Source: Catenuloplanes atrovinosus
GTDB lineage: Bacteria > Actinomycetota > Actinomycetes > Mycobacteriales > Micromonosporaceae
Length of the DNA stretch: 64,000 bases
Assembly: GCF_031458235.1 (NCBI RefSeq)
Contig: NZ_JAVDYB010000001.1
Span: 7,320,501 to 7,384,500 of the forward strand
Direction of reading: 5' to 3'
In this document: piece by piece, positions 4,689-52,952 of the stretch
How positions within the stretch are numbered: the first letter of the stretch is position 1
How the letters are laid out: every line of letters begins with the position of its first letter
Made by a program: the position numbers and the translations under genes
Notes under the pieces: generated by a model
The model's input: the letters and a program-made list of their open reading frames with translations, nothing else
What the model was told of the DNA's origin: nothing
Database searches by the model: none

Positions 4689-4774
4689 GACCACCCACGG
4701 TCCCGGCAGGGAGGCCGGCCACGGCCGACCGGTGCCCGCGGGAGCATGCGGGAGGTGGGCCCGCCGGAAGCGGG
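4689..4774 (+). repeat. Dispersed 86-bp intergenic repeat, copy 1
   Basis: One of three copies (also 29002-29087 and 50241-50326). Bases 4706-4751 form a 46-bp core identical in all three; it starts GCAGGGAGGCCGGCCACGGC and ends GGAGCATGCGG. Each copy opens with GACC-N2-CC-N-CGG and closes with CGCCGGAAGCGGG. The element can fold: GGCCG/CGGCC inside the core, and here a perfect GCCCGC-CGGAA-GCGGGC hairpin at 4759-4775. It lies between two convergent genes, 9 bp beyond the stop of the minus-strand phosphatase gene, so it may act in that gene's 3' untranslated region. Confidence 0.85.
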
Positions 4775-4783
4775 CGAACGAGA

Positions 4784-6343
4784 TCAGTGCCGTCGCAGCG
4801 CGACGACCGCGATGTCGTCGCTCATCTCCTGGCCGGCGAGCTCGCTCAGCAGGCGGTCGCAGAAGTCGTCGAGGTGGTCGTCGACGCCGCCGGCGGCGGA
4901 GGCGGCCAGCGCGCGGAGACCGTCGTCGATGGTGGCGTCGCGGCGCTCGATGAGGCCGTCCGTGTAGAGCACGAGCGTGGCGCCGGGCGGCACGACGAAC
5001 TCGGTGTCGTCCGGGCGGTTGGCGCGCGTGCCGAGCAGCGGGCCACGGTCCTCGATGTACTCCGGGCGGCCGTCCACGATGAGCAGCGGCGGCAGGTGAC
5101 CCGCGTTGGCCATCCGCACGTGCCCGCTGGCCGGGTCGATCAGCAGCAGGCAGACGGTCGCGACCTCGCCGCTGAGCAGCGTCAGCATCAGGTCGTTGAT
5201 CCGGGTGAGCACGGTCCCGGGCTGGTGCCCCTCGACCGCGTAGGCGCGCAGCGCGTGGCGCAGCTCGGCCATCACGGTGGCGGCGTGCAGCGAGTGTCCG
5301 GCGACGTCGCCGATCGCGGCCAGCAGCCGGCCGTCGATCATGGTCACCTCGTAGAAGTCGCCGCCGATCTCGGTGTGCGCGCTGGCCGGCTCGTACCGGC
5401 GGGCGATGTCCAGGCCGGTCACCTCGGGCAGCCGGCGCGGCAGCAGGCTGCGCTGCAGCGTGATCGCGATGCGGTGTTCCTCGTCGTACGACCGCTGCGC
5501 CTCGACCGCGGCCGCGATGGCCTGGGCGAGCTGGCGCAGCACGGGTGCGCCCGGGATGTTCGCCGCGGCGGGCACCGCGACGTGCACGGCGGGCCGGTCC
5601 GGGCGGATGCGGGTGACCGCGACGCCGACCGGGTCGCCCTCCGGCCACGCCATCAGCGACCAGGTCTCGGGCGGGTCGATGCGGAACGACGTGCCCACCG
5701 CGATCTCCTGGCCGGTGGCCGGCGACCACGGGCGCAGCATCGGCGTCTGCTCGGGGTCCTCACAGGTCGCGGCCCACAGCTCGCCGTCCGTGGTACCGGT
5801 GACCACGGCCGCCGGCCCTTTGAAGATCTTGGCGGCACCCCAGGCCGCGGCCTCCAGCAGCGCCGGGAAGTTGGCCGCCGAATTGATCGCCAGCGTGGTC
5901 TCGGCCAGCAGCGCCATCCGGTGCGCCAGCAGCTCCGCCTGCTTGCGCGCCCGGTAGTAGCGCAACACCGCCTGGGTGGTGGCGACCAGTTCCTCCGGCT
6001 CGATCGGCTCCACCAGGTACGCGTCGGCGCCCCGGTTCAGTCCGTGCGCACGGTCCGTCACGTCGACCGCGTGCGCGGAGACGTGCACCACCGGGAGCGC
6101 GGAATGCCGCGGGTTGCTCTTGATCCGTTCGCAGACCTCGAAGCCGGACATGTCCGGCAGGCGCACGTCCAGCACCACCAGGTCGATCGGCTTCACCTCG
6201 ACCAGTTGCAGCGCGTCCGCGCCGGTCTCCGCCTCCACGACCGCGTAGCCTGCCCGGGACAACCAGCTCACCAGCAGGTAACGCTTGGTGGCGTTGTCAT
6301 CGACGACCAGGACGGTCGCCGGATCGACGTGCACCCGGATCAC
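4784..6343 (-). CDS. Receiver-GAF-PP2C (SpoIIE-type) serine phosphatase
   Basis: 519 residues. Residues 1-125 are a CheY-like receiver (VVDDN acid pocket, phosphoacceptor Asp in VVLDVRLPD; the usual switch Lys is replaced by Glu in LVEPIEPEEL). A GAF-like segment follows, then a SpoIIE/RsbU PP2C domain with GGDFYEV, AIGDVAGHS, YTDGLIERRD and DDIAVVAL metal-binding motifs. Such proteins dephosphorylate STAS anti-anti-sigma factors. The GTG start overlaps the sensor kinase stop by 4 nt (GTGA). As the last gene of the stressosome operon it is the natural output enzyme. Its substrate may be the STAS protein encoded at 10640. Confidence 0.9.
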   Translation of the reverse strand: MIRVHVDPATVLVVDDNATKRYLLVSWLSRAGYAVVEAETGADALQLVEVKPIDLVVLDVRLPDMSGFEVCERIKSNPRHSALPVVHVSAHAVDVTDRAHGLNRGADAYLVEPIEPEELVATTQAVLRYYRARKQAELLAHRMALLAETTLAINSAANFPALLEAAAWGAAKIFKGPAAVVTGTTDGELWAATCEDPEQTPMLRPWSPATGQEIAVGTSFRIDPPETWSLMAWPEGDPVGVAVTRIRPDRPAVHVAVPAAANIPGAPVLRQLAQAIAAAVEAQRSYDEEHRIAITLQRSLLPRRLPEVTGLDIARRYEPASAHTEIGGDFYEVTMIDGRLLAAIGDVAGHSLHAATVMAELRHALRAYAVEGHQPGTVLTRINDLMLTLLSGEVATVCLLLIDPASGHVRMANAGHLPPLLIVDGRPEYIEDRGPLLGTRANRPDDTEFVVPPGATLVLYTDGLIERRDATIDDGLRALAASAAGGVDDHLDDFCDRLLSELAGQEMSDDIAVVALRRH

Positions 6344-28629: not shown

Positions 28630-29414
28630 TGCAATCTCTCCCCACCGGGCGATCACCGCGCCCGGAGCCGGATGCTACCCACCGCCTGCGACATGTATCG
28701 ACACGCGGACGACCGATCACCGAGGTCCGAACGGCCCATTCGGGATTGATTCGCACACACCGATACAACGCAATAACATGAAATTTCGGGCGTGCAGCGC
28801 CCGGCTCCGCTCTGCTTACCTCGCTCCCACCGACGACTCGCTGTCCCGCTTCGCCGGTTTTGCCCGGTGTCGGCGGGATCGCATTCGTCGGCTTCCCGAC
28901 CAAGATCGCGACGGAATGTACGGCGGCCACGTTTCGCGTGACTCGCACCGTGGCCGGCGCACATCCGACCGTTGATCTTGCTCCGGTGGCGCGTTTCGGA
29001 TGACCAGCCGCGGATCTTGCAGGGAGGCCGGCCACGGCCGACCGGTGCCCGCGGGAGCATGCGGAACGCAACCACGCCGGAAGCGGGAAAGGCTGAGAAC
29101 CAAACCGGGCCGGATCGGACGACCGCCGGGATACCGAACCCGGCGCAACGTAGAGACCGGGCGAAGCCCGAAACGGGCCGAAGCCGCACACCGGCTGAAG
29201 TCACATATCGGCTGAAGCCGGAGACGGGGCGTAGCCAGACACCTCGCCGAGGACGGAACCGCCGGAAGCGGGAGACCGCCCCGCGCCGGGGGCTTCCGCA
29301 AGCCGGAAAAGCCGGAACCGGGAATCACCGCGAGCCGGGGAGCACCGCCTCAAGCGAGACACCGCCGCAGGAACGACATCGCCGCGAGCCGGGCAACCGC
29401 AGGTAGCGGGAGGG
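28630..29414. other. Long intergenic region with degenerate GC-rich repeats
   Basis: No convincing gene in 785 bp; ORFs here have uneven codon bias. The left third (28630-29000) is locally less GC-rich and probably holds the promoter of the Hsp70-like gene. Copy 2 of the dispersed repeat is at 29002-29087. From 29088 to 29414 many imperfect copies of GCCGGAAGCGGG and GCCGAAGCCG follow, including IRs such as CGGCTGAAGCCG; these look like decayed multiples of the repeat's 3' end. Confidence 0.6.
29002..29087 (+). repeat. Dispersed 86-bp intergenic repeat, copy 2
   Basis: Its 46-bp core (29019-29064) is identical to copies 1 and 3, with the same GACC-type opening and CGCCGGAAGCGGG closing sequence. 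Unlike the other copies it lies 327 bp from the next minus-strand stop (GGDEF-EAL gene), the gap being filled with degenerate sequence resembling its own 3' end. Confidence 0.85.
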
Positions 29415-31757
29415 CTACGAGACCACGCCGGCTCGGTCCACGCGGAAGCGGGAGACGACGTCGTCGGCCGGGAGGGGGCGGTCGAAGTAGTAGCCCTGGG
29501 CGAAGCGGTAGCCCAGGGCGTACAGGCGGGACGCCTGGTCGGCGGTTTCGACGCCCTCGGCGACCGCGTGCAGGTTGAGGCCCGCGGTGATCTGGATGAG
29601 GGCGGTGACGATCACGGCCTGCTGGCCGTTGCCGCCGATGCCGGCGACGAAGGACTTGTCGACCTTGATGATGTCCACCGGGCAGGTGGTCAGCAGGCTC
29701 AACGACGAGTGGCCTGTGCCGAAGTCGTCCAGCGCCACGCGGAAGCCGAGGGAGCGCAGTGTGCGCAGGCTTTCCACGGCCGGGCCGCCGTCGAAGACCG
29801 CGGTTTCGGTGATCTCCAGGGTGATGGCGGAGGGGGCGACGCCGTACTCGGCGACGATGCCGGAGACCAGGTCGGGAAAGCCGGGCGAGCGCAGCTGGCG
29901 GGCGGATACGTTGACGTTGACCTCGATGTCGAGCTGGTACGCCGCGCGCCACGAGACGATCTGCCGGCAGACCTCGCGCAGCGCCCATTCGCCGAGCGTG
30001 TCGATGGTGCCGCTGCGTTCCGCGATCGCGATGAAGCGGTCCGGGGGCACCATGCCGTCGGTGGGGTGCCGCCAGCGCATCAGTGCCTCGACCCGCACGG
30101 TACGGCCGGACGGCAGCTCGACCACCGGCTGGTAGAGCAGGTGCAGCTGGTGGCGTTCGATGGCCTGGCGCAGGTCGGCGGCGAGCCGCGCCTCCTCGGC
30201 CGCGATCTGGTCCATGTCCGGGTGGTAGCCGACGAACACGGCCCCCTTGGCCTTCGCCACGTACATGGCGACGTCCGCGCGGCGGAGCACGTCCGCGCCG
30301 GTCGCGGCGTTGCCGTTGTCGGCCAGGCCGATGCCGGCGCTGACCTCCAGCTGGTGGCCCTCGATCACCACGGGTCGCTGCACGCGCGCGGCGATCTCGG
30401 CGCACCGCTCGCCGGCGGAGGCCGCGTCCAGGCCGGGCATGAGCACGGCGAACTCGTCGCCGCCGAGCCGCGCCACGGTGTCCTCGGTACGGACCGCGTG
30501 CAGCAGCCGCTCCGCGACCACCTCCAGCAGCCGGTCACCGGCCGCGTGGCCGAGCCAGTCGTTGACGGCCTTGAAGTCGTTGAGGTCGATCAGGAGTACG
30601 GCGAACCGCTCCCCCTCGGCCGTGGCCGCGTCCACCCGGGCGGCGAGCAGCGCGCGGTTGGCCAGGTTGGTGAGCGCGTCGTGCGAGGCCTGGTGGGCGA
30701 GCTGGGTCTGCACGGTGTCCAGGTCGTCCCAGGCGCTGCGCAGCGCCGCGAGGTTGGCGTCGACGGTGGCGAGCAGCCGCGCGTTCTCGCGGAGCACGGT
30801 GAGCTGCCGCACCAGCACCAGCGCGGTGAGGAACACGACGGTGACCGCGATCAGCATGGGCTCGGACGGGCCGCCGAGCCGGTCCTCGATCAGCAGCCCG
30901 CCGGCGGCGACCACCGCGACGTACGGCAGCACGCTGACCTTCACCCCTCCGGGCGCGGACTCGGCGCGCTCCACGGGGGCGCGGCGCTGCCGATCGGCCG
31001 AGAGGATCACGAACAGATAGGCGATGGGTACGGCGAGCATGCAGCCGTTGAGGTAGGGCCGGTCCGCGAGTGCGGGGCTGAGCGCCGCCGTGGCCGCGCT
31101 GCCGAAGGTGCCGATCGCCAGCAGGTGCAGCGCGCGCGGGTCGACGCCGCCGGTGCCGATGAGCGCGACCTTGACGAACGCGACGAGCGAGACGGCCGCG
31201 ACCGCGACGATCGCGACCAGCGCGAAGTCGGAGCCGGTCGAGGAGCGCCAGGTCTCGACGTGCCGCAGCGAGAAATGCCAGCCGAAGAGTGAGACGGTGA
31301 CCGCGATGACGCCGGCGTCGAGCGCGAACCGCAGCCGTTCGCCGGCCGTACGGATGCGGGCGGGCAGCCGGAACATCCCCCAGTGCGCGGCGGCCAGGCC
31401 ACCCATGAAGATCAACGCGCTACGTGGGCTGGTCCGGGTGGGCGCGGGTCCGGCCTGGAGCGAGTCGTAGCACATGCTGACCGAGCCGGCGAAGACGAAT
31501 GCGCTGGCCACGGCGATGGAGGCCCAGAAGCGCCGGACCGCGGGGTCGGCTCCGGGCACGCGGGCGGTGGCGCGGCACTCGTACGCGGCGAGCAGGCCCA
31601 GCACCGGCAGCGGCAGCCAGCCGAGCGCCGGCACCGGCCACTCGTACCACAGGCCGACCACGCACCAGACGATCGAGGCCAGGGTGAGCACGACCGCGGC
31701 GACGATCTGCGGCGTCGGCCGGAACGGGCGCACGGCGGCACCTGTTCCCACGCTCAC
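29415..31757 (-). CDS. Membrane GGDEF-EAL protein (cyclic di-GMP turnover)
   Basis: 780 residues. About eight hydrophobic helices (1-330) form a MASE-like sensor. The GGDEF domain has an intact active site, RLGGDEFAVL, so diguanylate cyclase activity is possible. The EAL domain keeps VEALMRWRHP, the metal ligands in EITET, DDFGTGHSSL, IIKVDKSFV and AVAEGVE, so phosphodiesterase activity is also likely. GGAGGT lies 6 bp before the GTG at 31757. Bifunctional proteins of this layout are common in Streptomyces and relatives, where c-di-GMP controls development. Confidence 0.93.
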   Translation of the reverse strand: MSVGTGAAVRPFRPTPQIVAAVVLTLASIVWCVVGLWYEWPVPALGWLPLPVLGLLAAYECRATARVPGADPAVRRFWASIAVASAFVFAGSVSMCYDSLQAGPAPTRTSPRSALIFMGGLAAAHWGMFRLPARIRTAGERLRFALDAGVIAVTVSLFGWHFSLRHVETWRSSTGSDFALVAIVAVAAVSLVAFVKVALIGTGGVDPRALHLLAIGTFGSAATAALSPALADRPYLNGCMLAVPIAYLFVILSADRQRRAPVERAESAPGGVKVSVLPYVAVVAAGGLLIEDRLGGPSEPMLIAVTVVFLTALVLVRQLTVLRENARLLATVDANLAALRSAWDDLDTVQTQLAHQASHDALTNLANRALLAARVDAATAEGERFAVLLIDLNDFKAVNDWLGHAAGDRLLEVVAERLLHAVRTEDTVARLGGDEFAVLMPGLDAASAGERCAEIAARVQRPVVIEGHQLEVSAGIGLADNGNAATGADVLRRADVAMYVAKAKGAVFVGYHPDMDQIAAEEARLAADLRQAIERHQLHLLYQPVVELPSGRTVRVEALMRWRHPTDGMVPPDRFIAIAERSGTIDTLGEWALREVCRQIVSWRAAYQLDIEVNVNVSARQLRSPGFPDLVSGIVAEYGVAPSAITLEITETAVFDGGPAVESLRTLRSLGFRVALDDFGTGHSSLSLLTTCPVDIIKVDKSFVAGIGGNGQQAVIVTALIQITAGLNLHAVAEGVETADQASRLYALGYRFAQGYYFDRPLPADDVVSRFRVDRAGVVS

Positions 31758-50240: not shown

Positions 50241-50326
50241 GACCGGCCACGGATCGTGCAGGGAGGCCGGCCACGGCCGACCGGTGCCCGCGGGAGCATG
50301 CGGAAACCGGCACCGCCGGAAGCGGG
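50241..50326 (+). repeat. Dispersed 86-bp intergenic repeat, copy 3
   Basis: Core 50258-50303 is identical to the other two copies. It sits between the convergent phytochrome and response-regulator genes, ending 10 bp beyond the stop of the minus-strand regulator, almost the same spacing as copy 1. Confidence 0.85.
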
Positions 50327-50336
50327 AAGATCGGCC

Positions 50337-50738
50337 CTAGGTTCTTGATCTCCAGTAGTCCAGGGTCTGCCGGAGAACGGTCTGGAACAGCGCGAAGTTG
50401 ATCGGCTTGTAGATGTAGCTGTCGGCGCCGGCGGCGTAGCAGGCGTCCGCCTCGGCCGGGTCCTCGGAGGAGGTGAAGACCACCATGGTGAGGCCGGTCA
50501 GGTCCGGGTGGGCGCGAACGCGGCGGAGCACGTCGAGGCCGCTCTCGCCCGGCATGTTCAGGTCGAGCAGGACCATGCCGGGACGGGTGGCGCCGTCGGC
50601 GGTCAGGCGCGGCAGCACCTCGGCGGCGGAACGGACGAACTCCAGGCGGATGCCGGGGTGCGTGCGGCCGATGGCCCGGTCGATCGCCTCCACGTCCTCG
50701 TCGGAGTCCTCCACCACCATGATCAGGTCTTCGTTCAC
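50337..50738 (-). CDS. Rcp1-like single-domain response regulator
   Basis: 133 residues, receiver only. Acid pocket VVEDSDED, phosphoacceptor Asp in MVLLDLNMPGESG, switch Thr/Ser in VVFTSSED, Lys in YIYKPINF. The DxxMPGxxG and KPINF features resemble the Rcp1 regulators that pair with phytochrome kinases. The convergent phytochrome gene is the likely partner. GTG start overlaps the phosphatase stop by 4 nt. Confidence 0.9.
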   Translation of the reverse strand: MNEDLIMVVEDSDEDVEAIDRAIGRTHPGIRLEFVRSAAEVLPRLTADGATRPGMVLLDLNMPGESGLDVLRRVRAHPDLTGLTMVVFTSSEDPAEADACYAAGADSYIYKPINFALFQTVLRQTLDYWRSRT

Positions 50739-52396
50739 CGCTGCTCCGCTCTGATCGCCAGGACGGCGATGTCGTCGGCCCCCGTCGTGCCGAAATCCTT
50801 GGCGGCCTGGCTCAGCTCGCGCACCAGCGCGTCGACCGGCAGGTCCCGCAGGTGGCGCGCGGTCTCGCGCAGCGCCACGTCCTCGAACATCCGGCCGTCC
50901 CGGTCACGGCTCTCGGTCAGCCCGTCGGTGAACATCAGCAGCGTGTCACCGGGCGTCAGCACCAGCCGGGAGCGGCCGAGCCGGCTGTCGTCCGTGATCC
51001 CGAGCGCCAGGCCGCCGCCGCGACCGGCCGTCACCCGGCCGTCGCGGCGCAGCACCAGCGGCGCCGGGTGTCCCGCGGACGTCCACTGCACGCTGATGCC
51101 CGCCCTCGTCTCGCGCAGCAGCGCCACGCCCGCGGTGACGAACCGCCACGAGCCGTCCCGGCGCAGGCCGGTGTTGAGCCGGCTCAGCGCGCGGGCCGGC
51201 GACACGCCCTCCTGGAGCAGCGTGCCGAGCGTGTGCCGGGCCATCCCGGTCAGCGCGGCGGCCGCGGCACCCCGGCCGCAGACGTCGCCGATCAGCGCCG
51301 CCACCACGCCGTTCGACCGGACCACGAGATCGTAGAAGTCGCCGCCGACGTCCAGCGCCCGATCGCCGACCGCGTAGGCCGCGGCCACACCCATCCCGGG
51401 TACGGCCGGCAGCCGCCGCGGCAGCAGGTGCTCCTGGAGCGTGACCATCTCGCGCCGGCGCTGCTCGTACAGGCCGCTGTTGTCCATCGCCAGCGCCGCG
51501 CGATGCGCCAGATCGCCGAGGAAGCCCGGGTGCGGCAGCAGCCCGTCCGGGCGGTCGAAGAAGAACAGCAGCACGCCGAGCACCCGGCCGCGGGCCCGCA
51601 GCACCTGCGCGCGCAGCGTCCGCGCGCCCACCTTCGCGGCGTCGACCGGCTCGAACCGCTCGCCGTGCCCGGCCACCGCGCGTTCCGCCAGCGCGCGCAG
51701 CCCGGACCGCGCGTCGTCGTCGGCCAGCAACTCCGCCATCCGCCGCATGTCCACGTGCACCGCACTGCGCAGCTCCAGCCCGGTCACGTCGCAGGCGAAG
51801 ACCAGGCAGCCCTCGGCGATCGCCGGGACCGTCATCCGCGCCACCCGCTGCATGGTCTGCGTCGTGTCCAGCACCGCGTCCATCTGCAGCGACGCCTCGG
51901 CCAGCAGCGCGTCACGCACCGACTGCTCGTCGTCGGCCCGGCGCCGCTTCAGCCGGGCGATCGCCTCCCGCGTGACGTCGATCACCTGCCACAGGCACCC
52001 GGCGAGCCGGCTCACGTCCGCGTCGTCGTCGACCAGCAGCTCGATCGTGCCGCCGGCCTCGCCGACGATCTCGAACCCGGCCACGATGATCTGCGCGGCC
52101 CCGACCCGGCGCAGCGCCTCGTCCCGTACGGCCACCGTCTCGCCGTGACCCCACACGCCCAGCCGCCGGGCCAGCGCCCGGTCCTCGTCGCTCTCCAGCG
52201 GCACGCCGGTCCACCGGTACTCGGCGACCTCGCCGTCGCTCACCCGGTGCCGCAGCCCCCACACCGCGACCACCCCCGGCAACGCCTGGAGCGGCGGCAG
52301 CACCAGCTCCGCCAACTCCTCACGGTCGGTGATGGCGCTGGCGGCCCGCCACAGCCGATGCAGCGCACCAGCCCAGACCCGGTCGCCGTCCCCCAC
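50735..52396 (-). CDS. GAF-containing PP2C (SpoIIE-type) phosphatase
   Basis: About 553 residues. Two GAF-like regions (about 20-160 and 165-320) are followed by a PP2C domain: HLLPRRLPAVPGM linker, VGGDFYDLV, IGDVCGRG, MFTDGLTESRD and ADDIAVLAI. It should dephosphorylate STAS antagonists. It is cotranscribed with the Rcp1-like regulator, so light input may feed into a partner-switching pathway; this link is inference. GGAGG sits directly before GTG 52405 but 7 bp before GTG 52396, so the latter is preferred. Confidence 0.88.
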   Translation of the reverse strand: MGDGDRVWAGALHRLWRAASAITDREELAELVLPPLQALPGVVAVWGLRHRVSDGEVAEYRWTGVPLESDEDRALARRLGVWGHGETVAVRDEALRRVGAAQIIVAGFEIVGEAGGTIELLVDDDADVSRLAGCLWQVIDVTREAIARLKRRRADDEQSVRDALLAEASLQMDAVLDTTQTMQRVARMTVPAIAEGCLVFACDVTGLELRSAVHVDMRRMAELLADDDARSGLRALAERAVAGHGERFEPVDAAKVGARTLRAQVLRARGRVLGVLLFFFDRPDGLLPHPGFLGDLAHRAALAMDNSGLYEQRRREMVTLQEHLLPRRLPAVPGMGVAAAYAVGDRALDVGGDFYDLVVRSNGVVAALIGDVCGRGAAAAALTGMARHTLGTLLQEGVSPARALSRLNTGLRRDGSWRFVTAGVALLRETRAGISVQWTSAGHPAPLVLRRDGRVTAGRGGGLALGITDDSRLGRSRLVLTPGDTLLMFTDGLTESRDRDGRMFEDVALRETARHLRDLPVDALVRELSQAAKDFGTTGADDIAVLAIRAEQR

Positions 52397-52498
52397 GCCC
52401 ACCACCTCCGGCCGTCACGCTGAGTAACACCCTGGCCACCGACCCGGTACAATATGTGACCGCTCCTCACGCCCCGCAAACCCAGGGAACCGCAGTCA

Positions 52499-52880: not shown

Positions 52881-52952
52881 TAGGCCGCCGGGGACTCGAA
52901 CCCCGAACCTATGGATTAAAAGTCCACAGCTCTGCCATTGAGCTAGCGGCCC
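52881..52952 (-). tRNA. tRNA-Lys (anticodon TTT)
   Basis: 72 nt. Acceptor GGGCCGC/GCGGCCT, TAGCTC D-arm start, anticodon stem GTGGA with loop CTTTTAA, T-arm GGTTCGAGTCCC, discriminator A. CCA is not encoded. All arms pair, so it should be functional. Confidence 0.95.

Follow-up and report, generated by a model that had tools for sequence, protein, structure and literature searches.

Origin of the question

The window (the 64-kb stretch of Catenuloplanes DNA analysed here) contains an 86-bp intergenic sequence in three copies, and the question is what this sequence is and why it lies where it does. An earlier note on this DNA, reasoning from the strictly conserved core, had offered function or recent mobility as the explanation. 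Its description of the copies holds: each is 86 bp long, all lie in one orientation and share an identical 46-bp core, and copies 1 and 3 stop 9 and 10 bp, respectively, short of the stop of a minus-strand gene; the signalling neighbours were also correctly recognised (a response regulator with SpoIIE domain of the PP2C type, a GGDEF-EAL protein, and a response regulator). The limits of the 86-bp unit are to some extent arbitrary, since conservation in the profile is lost gradually at either end. The coordinates of all features are summarized in Table 1.

Table 1. Features of the repeat, its hosts and associated sequences (window positions unless a locus is named)
Feature	Position	Strand	Remark
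Repeat copy 1	4689-4774	+ (orientation as first described)	Host gene reads minus strand, head (4774 side) first
Repeat copy 2	29002-29087	+	Tandem gap; 327 bp from end of copy to stop of host (29415-31733)
Repeat copy 3	50241-50326	+	Convergent gap
Identical 46-bp core	4706-4751; 29019-29064; 50258-50303		Copies 1, 2, 3
Head block CCCGCTTCCGGCG (host-sense)	4762-4774; 29075-29087; 50314-50326	-	Copies 1, 2, 3
Core block GCTCCCGCGGGC (host-sense)	4734-4745; 29047-29058; 50286-50297	-	Copies 1, 2, 3
Octamer ACCGGTGC, target of IS4-family IS	4728-4735; 29041-29048; 50280-50287	+	Copies 1, 2, 3; empty (no IS) in all window copies
Host of copy 1, response regulator with SpoIIE (PP2C-type) domain	4784-6343	-
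Host of copy 2, GGDEF-EAL protein	29415-31733	-
Host of copy 3, response regulator	50337-50738	-
Response regulator-SpoIIE gene pair	50337-52405		Inverted in G002-G004 (orthologs L195, L203, L206)
tRNA gene	52881-52952	-	Only Rfam match in the window
1,552-bp IS4-family IS inside repeat copies	L065:14329-15880; L068:2447-3998; L235:5219-6770
171-bp MITE-like forms	L301:1501-1671; L302:1356-1526
AT-rich palindrome like AAGATCAAGATCTTGATCTT	L106:3958-3977; also L093 and others		Ahead of head in some copies
Tandem array of short units	L101:3898-4097		Period 74-78 bp

Copy number and distribution

The chromosome of the window genome (G000; 8.9 Mb, one contig) carries about 220-260 copies of the repeat, for which control patterns gave 0-2 matches. 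The 46-mer core was found at 38 sites with up to 3 mismatches, 12 of them exact, and the inner 22-mer at 222 sites with up to 3 mismatches; the reversed control patterns gave none in either case, and the repeat is therefore not a product of chance. The 18-mer CCGCATGCTCCCGCGGGC was found at 263 sites with up to 1 mismatch (control, 2).

A search for the core in the genome and its relatives, as the earlier note had suggested, found it in all five genomes of the genus and in all six drawn from a second genus (g31). Among 300 genomes drawn from the family Micromonosporaceae, the 22-mer (up to 2 mismatches) was detected in 19, with 107-198 copies per genome in the window's genus (5/5 genomes), 4-108 copies in g31 (6/6 drawn), and 1-4 copies in eight other genomes. 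Among named genomes the exact 23-mer was found only in Catenuloplanes japonicus (56 stretches), in a search whose collection may lack the records of the genome under study or of one very close to it. A covariance model revealed no wider family, with matches in 6 of 61 genomes, the sixth being a single match (E 7.8e-4); this model did not pick up the second genus, although the DNA pattern did.

Regarding carriage by other replicons, the exact 20-mer occurred in 0 viral contigs and the plasmid collection contained nothing similar to copy 1 at E 0.001. The GC skew of the fetched loci is too flat to locate origin or terminus for an assessment of replication-strand bias. No description of such a repeat in Catenuloplanes or Micromonosporaceae was found among the matches listed in openly licensed papers.

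Placement relative to genes

Placement was analysed in 80 stretches of G000 around exact copies of the 22-mer (one 20-kb stretch excepted) together with the window, 0.81 Mb in all, with genes called by a codon-usage script. Head-plus-core matches numbered 120, and 115 had a gene on both sides; the head was directed toward a gene end in 98 of these, at a median of 18.5 nt. As this set includes some loose, possibly chance matches, a strict set was recounted from copies with a recognised cassette (106 usable copies, and 3 more without a gene on one side). Here the head was directed toward a gene end in 91 of 106 copies, at a median of 18 nt behind the stop codon, with 63 copies within 40 nt and 83 within 100 nt of the stop; 15 copies do not face a gene end. 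In 67 of the 72 convergent gaps of the strict set the head-side stop was the nearer one, and in the remaining 5 the opposite stop (72 versus 5 in the looser set; p 3e-16).

The association with 3' ends is thus strong, oriented and genome-wide, and the random placement that would have made the repeat merely neutral according to the earlier note is not seen in the sequence. The note's idea of a preference for 3' ends of minus-oriented genes stands with respect to the gene ends and falls with respect to the strand: a gene on either strand can be the host, as long as it reads toward the head.

Because choosing regions by the element had to be avoided, 1.18 Mb of orthologous chromosome in five genomes was used as an unselected set, in which orthologous copies are counted more than once. 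It contains 49 elements, one of them at an edge; 22 of the 48 placed ones lie in convergent gaps (7.1 expected by space), 25 in tandem gaps, one in a divergent gap (12.9 expected) and none inside genes. In the element-centred set, the gene calls place one of 125 HMM hits within a gene. The spacing is looser in the second genus: in the one genome analysed (G034), 24 of 30 copies have a nearest upstream gene that is read toward the element, and 14 of these 24 lie within 100 nt of it.

A general link to signalling genes, as the window alone had suggested, was rejected, with one signalling enzyme (RelA/SpoT) among ten randomly drawn hosts. The other hosts include citrate synthase, DNA polymerase III alpha, glycerol-phosphate oxidase, an MMPL transporter and a trypsin-like protease, and one host is without a Pfam match.

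Anatomy and predicted folding

For description, the element is read in the sense of the gene whose end adjoins (host-sense), which is the reverse complement of the strand first described. In this sense it comprises an AT-rich lead (often T's), the head CCCGCTTCCGGCG, a variable linker, the core CCGCATGCTCCCGCGGGC and a hairpin cassette; the element is modular and polar, and its hairpin cassettes are interchangeable. Three forms of short cassette account for 99, 27 and 24 of 166 short copies, with 16 other. The long cassette consists of a conserved loop flanked by variable stems, and tandem forms exist too. The AT-rich palindrome located ahead of the head in some copies (Table 1) may belong to the complete element. 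In some gaps two or three copies occur together, in either orientation, BIMEs being defined by regular spacing and alternating orientation; as to the features of MITEs, no terminal inverted repeat is evident in the profile, and element-free sites are too diverged to reveal a target-site duplication.

The two arms of the long stems fit each other far better than re-dealt partners: for 36 distinct long stems the arm partner score was 531, versus a maximum of 409 in 200 re-dealings. In a 35-sequence alignment, 99.6% of the cells of a 13-pair structure are paired, versus 92.1% when shuffled; 32 cells are changed on both sides, for which few events may be responsible, because both changed pairs belong to one hairpin and the rows fall in two groups.

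The structured molecule could also be the transcript of the strand first described, in which case its hairpins would form a barrier to transcripts from the convergent neighbour and shield the host from antisense transcription. RNAalifold prefers that strand (-18.4 versus -12.4 for the long form; -6.4 versus -4.4 for the short form), changes in the core mostly preserve standard or wobble pairs on it, and the enrichment of convergent gaps would fit such a barrier. A strand-neutral stem count, however, gives no preference (11 G.U pairs host-sense, 8 on the strand first described), 25 of the 49 unselected elements lie in tandem gaps, and the T run lies opposite to where a terminator on that strand would need it; we regard this explanation as highly unlikely.

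An IS4-family insertion sequence in the core

The repeat core is the target of an IS4-family insertion sequence in the genus. A 1,552-bp insertion, which encodes a 421-aa IS4-family transposase, splits two copies in G000 and one in G002; it lies within the element core and duplicates 8 bp, ACCGGTGC (GCACCGGT on the opposite strand), at the same point each time. As the fetched loci had been chosen around repeats, the IS end was also searched for in 11 genomes, and was found at 57 places in the genus (G000, 4; G001, 2; G002, 26; G003, 25; G004, 0) and at 14 places in g31, in two of six genomes. Loci were obtained for 30 of these places, in order of closeness of match. All 24 genus IS ends read lie in the repeat, counting one (L312) that ends in the same GCCGACCGGTGC and fails a loose repeat-half test through its changed upstream part; the other 23 pass this test, as do 822 of 20,000 random positions (4%). 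Four more places in G002 are, by coordinate, one base from exact core matches (1244810, 1432792, 5730373 and 8072904). Such an element with a single octamer target is a possible site-specific tool.

Two related observations were made. The 171-bp (MITE-like) forms in G001 and G003 have IS-like ends and occupy the same target site, with imperfect duplications. In g31, all eight ends read of a related IS are flanked by other shared sequence, ending in GTCCGGAC (GTCTGGAC in one); these flanks are of two shared kinds, with GAGCTACCGCGATGTCCG on one side (L303, L304, L309, L313, L317, L320, L323 and L326).

Recognition of the core as DNA by a transposase is in line with a site acting at the DNA level, whose palindromic core or cruciform might bind gyrase or a nucleoid protein at the ends of transcription units, as was proposed for the enterobacterial REP and BIME sequences. 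The copies between convergent genes and the stems without strand preference are also compatible with such a site; it would, however, need neither a polar architecture nor a spacing from stop codons, and we consider it very improbable here.

Inheritance and gain or loss among species

When the three hosts in the window were followed in four relatives, 8 of 12 host-by-species tests found the element behind the ortholog, a count that includes one distant partial copy (G002, GGDEF-EAL gene); an apparent remnant at the response regulator ortholog of G002 is a further case. This response regulator gene is inverted in G002, G003 and G004, and in G003 and G004 the element is kept behind the stop and has turned alongside. 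The inversion comprises the response regulator-SpoIIE gene pair (Table 1), which in G004 is flanked by two opposite copies of the repeat; because of this position between two copies, the inversion may have arisen through the repeats. Of nine G002 elements that lie no more than 120 nt from a host with an ortholog in G004, six are shared between these two genomes, whose median protein identity is 95%.

The alternatives of function or recent mobility, as put forward in the earlier note, therefore oversimplify the matter: many copies are old and have been passed on in place from species to species, and the family as a whole seems to have spread by copying. No mover of the repeat was found. Over 17 non-independent ortholog pairs, identity was 1.00 in the core, 0.97 in the head, 0.65 in the linker and 0.55 in the 20 nt before the element, and 0.66 in the 40 nt after it (14 of these pairs); conservation of head and core is partly by choice of rows, because only rows with recognisable head and core were kept, by patterns that allow 3 and 1 mismatches. 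In the pair G002 124283 / G004 121926 the flanks (0.95 and 0.97) are as conserved as the element, and the linker is at 0.87. Different cassettes occur at one locus in different species (at the SpoIIE locus, and at G002 407635), and at some loci the gene ends nearly touch in relatives without the element, with no clean duplication readable.

The main rival to a role at 3' ends is a neutral or selfish repeat tolerated at gene ends: a past mobile process might have placed it in one orientation into T-rich DNA behind stops, or it might have been purged elsewhere, with no benefit to the host gene, and gene conversion between copies would keep head and core alike. We consider this possible but rather doubtful. 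High copy number and close similarity would be expected of it, and it would accommodate the differing cassettes at one locus, the gains and losses with nearly touching gene ends in element-free relatives, and the similar placement of REPs in other phyla as given in excerpts of a report on these (PMC3733652). Purging alone, on the other hand, leaves the fixed polarity relative to the host gene unexplained; between species, head and core persist better than linker and flanks (in rows chosen by recognisable head and core), and no RAYT gene (PF01797) was detected in the five genus genomes.

Proposed role at mRNA 3' ends

We consider the element to be a high-copy, REP/BOX-like, non-coding extragenic repeat of Micromonosporaceae that most likely serves as a 3'-end element of the host mRNA, a reading to which we assign a probability of roughly 0.5. 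The repeat family would have spread by copying in the past, with its mover lost or not traced, and many copies would now be inherited in place, surviving where they are harmless or useful, i.e. in the 3' untranslated region of a host gene. The element would be transcribed within this region, and at the C-rich, hairpin-bearing transcript Rho might stop RNA polymerase, or 3' exonucleases might stall. Judged from base composition, such a Rho-dependent or exonuclease-stalling role is the most likely mechanism and the one we prefer, in view of the C-over-G skew and the rarity of intrinsic-terminator-like sites. The skew behind host stops with the element is +0.17 (n=87), versus +0.04 at control convergent ends (n=78), though C-richness is only a hint of possible Rho use. 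Within 300 nt, intrinsic-terminator-like sites accompany 14 of the 87 element ends and 20 of the 96 control ends.

Two other candidates were rejected. For an intrinsic terminator, defined by a GC-rich hairpin with a T run behind it, a site of this kind lies inside the element at one of 87 host ends, and none was found around copies 1 and 3. A known Rfam RNA gave no gathering-score match at the element; on six loci, three weak matches were obtained, none of them at the element.

An extended form of the 3'-end reading, which we think unlikely, is a lineage-specific module: a near-identical structured element behind scores of unrelated genes would be a common device for mRNA ends or boundaries, with a trans-acting factor (a Rho partner, nuclease or DNA-binding protein, as candidates) reading head and core, and with a freely exchangeable cassette. 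Transcript ending in high-GC actinomycetes without T-run terminators is poorly understood, and copies that are present or absent at one gene in sister species constitute a natural set of paired tests.

Comparison with known repeats

The BOX elements of Streptococcus pneumoniae are modular small interspersed repeats, and the Catenuloplanes repeat is likened to them by modularity alone; the host differs. The criteria of REPs in the broad sense describe it: it is of high copy number, intergenic and stem-loop forming. A constant GTAG or CGTC tag is absent: of 213 copies, 7 have GTAG and 48 have CGTC within 25 nt of an end (9 and 141, respectively, at any position). A RAYT-driven REP was rejected, since the RAYT domain (Y1_Tnp, PF01797) was found in none of the five genus genomes, versus 5 of 14 control genomes with a match. 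The repeat is hence REP-like, outside the GTAG and CGTC families.

REPs elsewhere, as far as excerpts of the reports show, are present in many palindromic intergenic copies, mostly in convergent or tandem gaps near 3' ends (PMC3733652), and are targets of specific IS elements (PMC1525189). The Catenuloplanes repeat resembles the REPs (GTAG/CGTC) and BIMEs of Proteobacteria and others in these respects, so that neither its placement nor its targeting by an IS is new in kind. It differs in its length of about 86-110 bp (REP, 20-40 bp) and in being polar.

The excerpted report on intergenic repeats of Pseudomonas fluorescens (R0, R2, R5 and others) describes stem-loops and a tail-repeat-tail bias (PMC2718517), as observed here in an unrelated organism; fixed polarity and spacing from stop codons, as in the Catenuloplanes repeat, are not mentioned for them in the excerpts. 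Inverted repeats of Escherichia coli also show enrichment downstream of stop codons, and the longer among them are mostly parts of intrinsic terminators (PMC6060812). The closest parallel to the insertion sequence that we can name is ISRm22 (IS4 family) of Sinorhizobium meliloti, whose copies lie in REPs (10 of 10 in a table and nine in the text of the excerpted source) and are associated with 6-bp repeats (PMC1525189); like ISRm22, the element described here is an IS4-family IS with copies in palindromic repeats, but it is 1,552 bp long, produces an 8-bp duplication (ACCGGTGC) and uses another repeat.

Its length, its polarity and the fixed head and core set the Catenuloplanes repeat apart from known REPs, as do the actinomycete host and the absence of both a constant GTAG/CGTC tag and a RAYT (no Y1 transposase in five genus genomes). 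Without a RAYT, the repeat must spread, or have spread, by other means. It thereby extends the pattern of a palindromic repeat at gene ends, and of an IS that targets it, to an actinomycete, here without RAYT.
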